Assembly (NCBI GenBank): GCA_944389075.1
Contig: CALXLA010000024.1
Location: forward strand, 1 to 64,000
Source: an uncultured Spirochaetaceae bacterium
GTDB lineage: Bacteria > Spirochaetota > Spirochaetia > Sphaerochaetales > Sphaerochaetaceae
Reading direction: 5' to 3'
DNA: 64,000 nucleotides
Shown: positions 16,066-17,282 of the stretch, piece after piece
Layout: every line of letters starts with the position of its first letter
Position numbering within the stretch: position 1 is the stretch's first letter
Translations under genes and position numbers: made by a program
The notes under the pieces: model-generated
What the model saw: only the letters and a program-made list of their open reading frames with translations
Databases searched by the model: none
Told to the model about the DNA's origin: nothing

Positions 16066-16335
16066 TCAGAAAAGCTCACTATGGCTTCCTGTACGTGAAA
16101 GAACCAGTACCAGCTTCTGCTTATTTATCCTGTATATAAGAAGCCAGTCTGGGGCTATATGGCATTCTCTCATTCCTTTGTAGTTTCCTGAGAGAATATG
16201 GTCTCTATATCTTGCTGGAAGGGTTTCTCCATTTCTGAGTATTTCGATGACTTCAAAAAGTGGGGATGTGTCTTTTGCCTTTTTTACTTTCTTGTAGTCT
16301 TTCTTGAATTGTGTTGTCAGGAATATATCAAGCAT
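16066..16335 (-). CDS. yafQ: YafQ-family mRNA interferase toxin (RelE superfamily)
   Basis: An 89-aa type II toxin expected to cleave mRNA on the ribosome. The family pattern is clear: FLTTQFKKDYKKVKK at the start, LPARYRDHILSGNYKGMRECHIAPDWLLIYRI in the middle (with the conserved His-Asp and Arg region), and the C-terminal SRTGSHSELF with the catalytic His. ATG 16335 overlaps the antitoxin stop codon; a TTG at 16338 adds one residue. All key residues appear intact. Confidence 0.88.
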   Translation of the reverse strand: MLDIFLTTQFKKDYKKVKKAKDTSPLFEVIEILRNGETLPARYRDHILSGNYKGMRECHIAPDWLLIYRINKQKLVLVLSRTGSHSELF

Positions 16336-16588
16336 CAAGGGTTGCCTTCAGGTCTTCCATGGTCTTGTACGGACCTTCAAGATTTCTCTCTTTCATAGCA
16401 TCTGCAATGGCCCTGCGGGTTTCCTTATTCGGCGTTCTAGATACGGAGAAAGGAATACCATCCACTGCCACAGCTTTTTTCAGGAACATGGTGCATGCTG
16501 TTGTCATATCCATTCCGAGATCATTGAAAAGCTCTGAAGCTTTCTCTTTAAGTTCGCCATCGATTCTTATTGTGATTGTACTCATCAT
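16328..16588 (-). CDS. dinJ: DinJ/RelB-family antitoxin
   Basis: An 86-aa antitoxin with a ribbon-helix-helix N-terminus (STITIRIDGELKEKASELF) that binds DNA and a C-terminal tail that wraps the toxin. DLGMDMTTACTMFLKKAV is the family's second helix. It is translated first and overlaps the toxin gene by eight bases, the usual order for this module. A perfect 12-bp palindrome lies just upstream and is the likely autoregulatory operator. Confidence 0.88.
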   Translation of the reverse strand: MMSTITIRIDGELKEKASELFNDLGMDMTTACTMFLKKAVAVDGIPFSVSRTPNKETRRAIADAMKERNLEGPYKTMEDLKATLDA

Positions 16589-16616: not shown

Positions 16617-16743
16617 CATTAATACACTGTCAGTATAAATGCAAGGAATTGTATTTTTGTTTTGCAAAGAATCCAATATCTATTACACGTATCTGTTAAG
16701 GAAAACTTCTTATATGATACACTTCTTCTATAATGGAGGAGAG

Positions 16744-17282
16744 ATGAAGAGATTAACGGTTTCTGTCATATTGCTTTTCATCTTTGTGCTTGCATTGCCT
16801 GCTGCATCAATGGGGGGGGTAATGTAGGGGCAGATGTAAGCTATTTCAGACATTACAATCGCTCGCTTAGCAACGTAGAATCACAGGAAGTAGTCATTGG
16901 TATAAGCAATGACAATTATTTTGACTCTGAAGGCATTTTCGGCTTAGGCCTTGATGTAGGCTATGGCTTCGCATTCGGACAACTGAGAGGCTTTGATGCC
17001 ATACACCTTGGAGCTGATGCGCTTTTCCGTATCCCGATGAATGATTTCATGGCATTCATCTTCTCCGTAGGTATCAGGGACAGTATCTATATCTTTAATA
17101 ACATTGACACAAATGAATTCGGCTGGGGTTGTGGTATGTCTCTTGCATTCAAGCCTGCTGATTTCATACAGCTTGAGGCCTCTCTTGGCTATACAATGCC
17201 GATAGTCTCTTCATATGAAGGTGTGATTGCACCTAATTCCCATATTGTGTCGTGCAGCATTGTCGCGTCATATCTGTATTAA
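16744..17282 (+). pseudogene. Outer-membrane beta-barrel-like protein, split by a run of eight G
   Basis: A start ATG with a strong GGAGGAG site begins a clean signal peptide (MKRLTVSVILLFIFVLALP). After 27 codons the frame hits TAG, two codons past a run of eight G (16812-16819). In the next frame the reading continues without a stop from 16818 to TAA 17282. That part is about 154 residues rich in Gly/aromatic alternating strands (GLGLDVGYGFAFG, GCGMSLAFKPADF), ending in a hydrophobic strand IVASYLY, as in small outer-membrane barrels. Nine or six G would join the parts into about 179 aa. It may therefore be a phase-variable gene in the off state, or an assembly slip. It precedes the lipoprotein gene by 12 bases. 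Confidence 0.75.

Follow-up and report, generated by a model that had tools for sequence, protein, structure and literature searches.

The opa genes of Neisseria carry CTCTT repeats within the codons of the leader peptide. In the 5' region of the Helicobacter pylori outer-membrane protein gene oipA, a CT repeat acts as a translational switch (PMC10564699). In Helicobacter canadensis, homopolymeric tracts are found in promoters, at 5' ends and at 3' ends, and all 29 of them varied in read data (PMC2823697). Among spirochaetes, Treponema pallidum controls outer-membrane protein genes through the length of poly-G tracts in their promoters, the loci being TP0126, tprE/G/J and tprL; for TP0126, an OmpW homologue, the tract lies between -35 and -10 and has an optimum of 17 (PMC7864442). 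Length variation was also seen in 76% of 17 further T. pallidum poly-G tracts of at least eight, several of them inside ORFs, for example in tp0969 at +56 (PMC7864442).

The locus studied here lies in a window of 64 kb, the whole stretch of DNA that was analysed, and resembles the T. pallidum system in belonging to a spirochaete with poly-G tracts of at least eight on outer-membrane protein genes, some of them near the ORF start. The promoter tracts of its genus resemble that of TP0126 in lying between -35 and -10. Unlike in T. pallidum, the control in the window would be translational, with the tract at the signal-peptide junction, and the lineage is an uncultured spirochaete genus in which lipoproteins dominate the tract set. 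With oipA and opa the locus would share frame-dependent ON/OFF expression through a slippage repeat that lies close to the 5' end of a gene for an outer-membrane barrel, but those repeats are dinucleotides and pentanucleotides, whereas ours is a mononucleotide run, and the proteins are unrelated. The H. canadensis phasome is similar in being genome-wide and consisting mainly of poly-G contingency tracts in promoters and 5' ends, and differs in belonging to an epsilonproteobacterium with a different gene set.

Table 1. Features of the barrel–lipoprotein locus in window coordinates.
Feature	Position	Strand	Remarks
YafQ/RelE-family toxin gene	16066–16338	-	Partner of the antitoxin; PF15738, E 7.6e-34
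RelB/DinJ-family antitoxin gene	16328–16588	-	Between sensor kinase and barrel; TIGR02384, E 6.5e-21
Shine-Dalgarno-like GGAGG	16735–16739	+	Ahead of the signal-peptide ATG; read directly from the sequence
Signal-peptide ORF, 27 aa	16744–16827	+	MKRLTVSVILLFIFVLALPAAS, then Met-Gly-Gly and an early stop; predicted OFF product; translation
G8 tract, proposed slippage site	16812–16819	+	Between signal peptide and barrel; G7 in the orthologue from another genus
Barrel half, 154 codons and stop	16818–17282	+	Out of frame with the signal peptide; AF2, Foldseek, codon-position comparison
Lipoprotein, 542 aa	17295–18923	+	Lipobox LASC; intact; conserved partner gene of the barrel

An earlier note on this DNA had placed the signal peptide and the barrel in different frames joined exactly across the G8 tract, with G9 or G6 restoring a single frame of about 179 aa, and a lipoprotein gene 12 bases on. 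Direct reading and translation of the sequence bore out its coordinates, frame arithmetic and product length, and the lipoprotein ORF indeed starts 12 bases past the barrel stop (Table 1). The frame starting with the ATG at 16744 reads MKRLTVSVILLFIFVLALPAASMGGVM and ends at the stop codon 16825–16827. The barrel frame is open from upstream of the tract to its stop at 17280–17282 and has no start codon upstream of G8. The two frames, one apart, meet at the tract, which occupies codons 23–25 of the gene of about 179 codons and whose length thus sets the frame early in the ORF; in the intact orthologues the signal peptide is joined directly to the barrel. Apart from this G8, the window has no run of G or C exceeding 6, and the G8 falls exactly at the frame change. 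No other long ORF in the window looks broken (53 ORFs of at least 150 aa give 89% coverage), and genes that contain an A7, T7 or T8 run keep their frames intact. Upstream, a YafQ/RelB-type toxin–antitoxin pair (16066–16588) sits between a PhoR-like kinase gene and the barrel. It looks like a lineage-specific insertion, because in the related genome G040 the barrel comes immediately after the end of the kinase gene, with no antitoxin at that place.

With four sequences as input, AF2 predicted eight strands for the barrel half (154 aa; mean pLDDT 85, pTM 0.78), and the G8 tract sits right at the boundary of the signal peptide and strand 1. A Foldseek search of solved structures ranked NspA first (1p4t, E 6.7e-7), followed by Ail, OmpX and OmpA; the eight-stranded barrels NspA, OmpX and OmpA have their fold in common with the window barrel, at 8–15% identity in these matches. 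The signal peptide, the eight predicted strands and the C-terminal aromatic residue (...SYLY) together characterize the product as a predicted eight-stranded outer-membrane beta-barrel, in agreement with the earlier description of the gene as outer-membrane-like. The barrel matched no Pfam or NCBIfam model up to E 1. Membership of the OmpW family, as for TP0126, was considered and rejected: OmpW appeared only as a lower-ranked fold match in Foldseek, and no curated OmpW/OMP_b-brl model matched up to E 1. For the lipoprotein, a sequence search of solved structures found nothing, and the AF2 model (pLDDT 54) was too poor for interpretation.

The half of the gene beyond the tract appears to be under purifying selection. 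In a comparison with G040, 27% of first, 23% of second and 71% of third codon positions of the barrel half differ, a pattern that is even along the whole barrel, and its 154 codons contain no stop. The test covers the barrel half, the 27-codon leader being too short for it, and synonymous sites are saturated against G040, so that a dN/dS ratio is not quotable. Protein identity to G040 is 62% for the barrel and 53% for the intact lipoprotein, and the barrel is, as judged by this comparison, at least as conserved as its intact neighbour. These observations bear on the idea of a fixed frameshift, under which the gene is inactivated and en route to decay, the G-run being merely the site of the mutation. 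While the signal peptide and the barrel are out of frame in the sole available sequence, as such decay would have it, the 154 codons without a stop, a conservation equal to that of the intact neighbour with third-position changes along the whole length, and a break of the same site at a G-run in an unrelated lineage (see below) make a fixed frameshift highly improbable. The codon-position test is compatible with a very recent inactivation of the barrel gene.

We found an intact in-frame barrel in five of the 47 other genomes of the genus (G001, G009, G016, G040 and G044), none of which has a G-run at the junction of signal peptide and barrel. Widening the search to 139 genomes of the family yielded one further confident orthologue, G245, which belongs to another genus (barrel E 3.4e-21, with the lipoprotein gene after it); the same lipoprotein gene follows the barrel at every confident orthologous locus. 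In G245, a G7 run lies exactly at the junction, and the signal peptide (VKKVIISIFLFVMVASVSFAFSGTV) and the barrel are in different frames. Of the seven orthologues, two thus have a G-run, and these and no others are out of frame. The two are not sister genes: the trees group the window gene with G040 (support 99/99 for the barrel and 100/100 for the lipoprotein) and not with G245, whose branch is long and whose exact placement is uncertain. We estimate from this genome's rate that the chance of a run of G7 or longer in a given 60-base junction is ~3 in 10,000. The earlier note held that homologues lacking a G-run at the site would refute a switch. This applies in part: the five intact orthologues do lack one, but G245, the only confident orthologue from outside the genus, has its G7 there and its two halves in different frames. 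Lineage specificity is common among contingency tracts. A protein scan of a genome-contig collection with the barrel gave no relative, a scan with the lipoprotein alignment gave three loci that are by sequence the already known G016, G009 and G044 copies, and an exact flank search found no same-species copies in viral contigs.

The orthologues also bear on recoding, in which some barrel would constantly be made from the G8 gene, either by a ribosomal frameshift of -1 on G GGG GGG or by slippage during transcription. The needed shift is indeed -1, the heptamer G GGG GGG stands in the signal-peptide frame, and some leakage is plausible. However, the downstream stimulatory structure is not unusually stable (z -0.86), five orthologues need no recoding and G245 would need the opposite shift, leaving recoding only the slightest of chances as the explanation of the locus.

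To place the tract in its genomic context, we counted G/C runs on both strands of the genome (2.23 Mb, 60 contigs) by pattern searches. Exact run counts were 36 for G6, 4 for G7, 3 for G8 and 15 for G9–12, while geometric decay from six to seven predicts well under one run of nine or longer. As runs are expected to become rarer with length and instead grow commoner after eight, the long tracts are retained and not accidental. The genome has 18 tracts of at least G8, eight of which are flanked by a perfect TTGACA and, 17–22 bases on, a TAnnnT box; each of these eight promoters, with G8–10 in the spacer, precedes a lipoprotein gene, and the signal peptides encoded by most of these genes resemble one another (MKKL...MLFAFTAC). 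A GT2 glycosyltransferase has an internal G9 in frame, and another glycosyltransferase has a tract just upstream. The mixture of in-frame and out-of-frame tracts is the expectation for a set of switches. The genome has MutS, and we therefore see no sign of a repair-deficient background. An HsdS gene (G000:C4:26699-26707, L015:2501-2509) carries a G9 in frame between two Methylase_S domains and is a candidate phase-variable type I specificity subunit, which, if phase-variable, would switch genome-wide methylation. A type ISP restriction-modification gene (Mrr_cat_2, ResIII, ISP_coupler; G000:C27:17292-17301, L018:2501-2510) is broken out of frame at a G10.

The census speaks to the alternative offered in the earlier note, an assembly or base-calling error, in which case the tract in the cells would be in frame and the gene simply ON. 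Homopolymers are the usual site of such errors, and the genome is in 60 contigs. Errors of this kind would not account for the bimodal tract lengths, the preference of the tracts for promoters and N-termini of surface genes, the intact frames at the other homopolymers in window genes or the orthologue G245, likewise out of frame at its own G-run, and we regard an error as very unlikely; even with a wrong count, the tract would stay a likely switch.

We extended the comparison to 48 genomes of the genus, one per species, with tracts of G9 or longer surveyed in a sample of 40; all 40 had them. The pattern TTGACA...G8-12 TAnnnT occurs on lipoprotein genes in 33 of the 48 genomes and not at all (0) in the reversed control. 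In sister species, tracts lie in or just past the signal peptides of many lipoproteins, and G006 has a second barrel gene that is out of frame at a G8 behind its signal peptide (MKKAIIFLSLLLSAGMVFA) and has no sequence relationship to the window barrel. Of 15 pairs of near-identical paralogous poly-G promoters, each pair from a single genome, 10 have tracts of unequal length. Examples are G9 against G10 in contigs C1 and C10 of G048 (flank identity 116/120) and, in pairs that include copies near contig ends, G8 against G9 in C68 and C90 of G059 (118/120) and G9 against G10 in G043 (102/102). With flanks so nearly identical, the differing tract lengths imply that tract length changes faster than the flanks.

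The spacers of the poly-G promoters in the genus are mostly 18–19 long, not 17 (e.g., L017, L019-L025, L036-L065). In G059:C59, adjacent tail-fibre/baseplate-like genes, one of which matches Gp10_C, each have a G9 after ~25 codons (L113:2003 and L113:2682) and are possible phase-variable prophage fibres, as judged from their sequence. In G012, G018, G043 and G059, many contigs end ~70–160 bases from a poly-G promoter, a pattern that would arise if the promoter and signal-peptide regions of the lipoproteins were repeats that break assemblies.

TA directly follows 16 of the 18 tracts of at least G8 in this genome. For tracts without TTGACA the figure is 8 of 10, with roughly 10% expected from base composition, and a hand tally over 11 genomes gave about 49 of 80, some of these being promoters with an imperfect -35. 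Against a reversed control, G8-TA is severalfold more frequent across the genus, which is not so in most other families of the class. In promoter tracts the TA is the start of the -10 box; coding tracts with TA, the window G8 included, have no such -10 reason for it. The genus could have a dedicated poly-G switch architecture in which promoter and coding tracts alike abut TA, a conjecture we hold to be unlikely. If it is true, the tracts would not have arisen independently from chance G-runs, and those abutting TA could stem from sequence-specific copying or seeding, or coding tracts could double as -10 elements. A hidden promoter on the tract within the barrel gene itself (TTGCCT - 19 - TAATGT) was rejected: the match is weak, and a promoter scan gave no more sites than chance.

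The frame break in the barrel gene is very probably a reversible on/off switch, because the genus has many G-runs, mostly on surface-protein genes, and we accordingly favour with good confidence a translational contingency (phase-variation) switch for the locus. The proposal of the earlier note that the G-run is a slippage site for phase variation gains support from the tract distribution, the tract placement and the out-of-frame G7 of G245. Neither assembly error nor a fixed frameshift nor recoding accounts for both the recurrence in G245 and the distribution of tracts over the genome (ALTERNATIVES). Points against a switch are the five orthologues in frame without a G-run, the shortness of G8 among the tracts of this genome and the presence of MutS.

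In the proposed mechanism of phase variation, a gene for an eight-stranded outer-membrane barrel, the first of a conserved barrel–lipoprotein pair, would carry poly-G between the codons of the signal peptide and of the first strand, and slipped-strand mispairing would alter the length of the tract. At the assembled length, G8, the ribosome would leave the signal peptide and stop after 27 codons, with no barrel made; compatible lengths would give one protein of ~179 aa with extra glycines at a tolerant place. In the OFF state, which we infer for the cells from the assembled sequence, the ~455 untranslated bases before the lipoprotein could reduce its expression by polarity. Tract length would vary within the species at this locus, at a slippage rate that may be low, because eight is near the lower limit of tract lengths in this genome. 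The locus would belong to a poly-G switch set of the genome and genus whose members mainly concern lipoproteins, restriction-modification genes and glycosyltransferases, and its purpose would presumably be surface variation toward host, phage or competitors.

We found no reports on this lineage in an open-access library; the slippage mechanism is already known, and what appears to be new here is the gene, the genus and the extent, the gene set being apparently undescribed. With this locus, a spirochaete genus known here from metagenome-assembled genomes alone gains a likely translational ON/OFF switch acting on an outer-membrane barrel. The larger finding is the genus-wide set, in which hundreds of poly-G tracts lie in the promoters and the N-terminal codons of genes for surface lipoproteins and others on restriction-modification genes and glycosyltransferases, and surface variation in these uncultured spirochaetes is therefore directly measurable from existing metagenomic reads.
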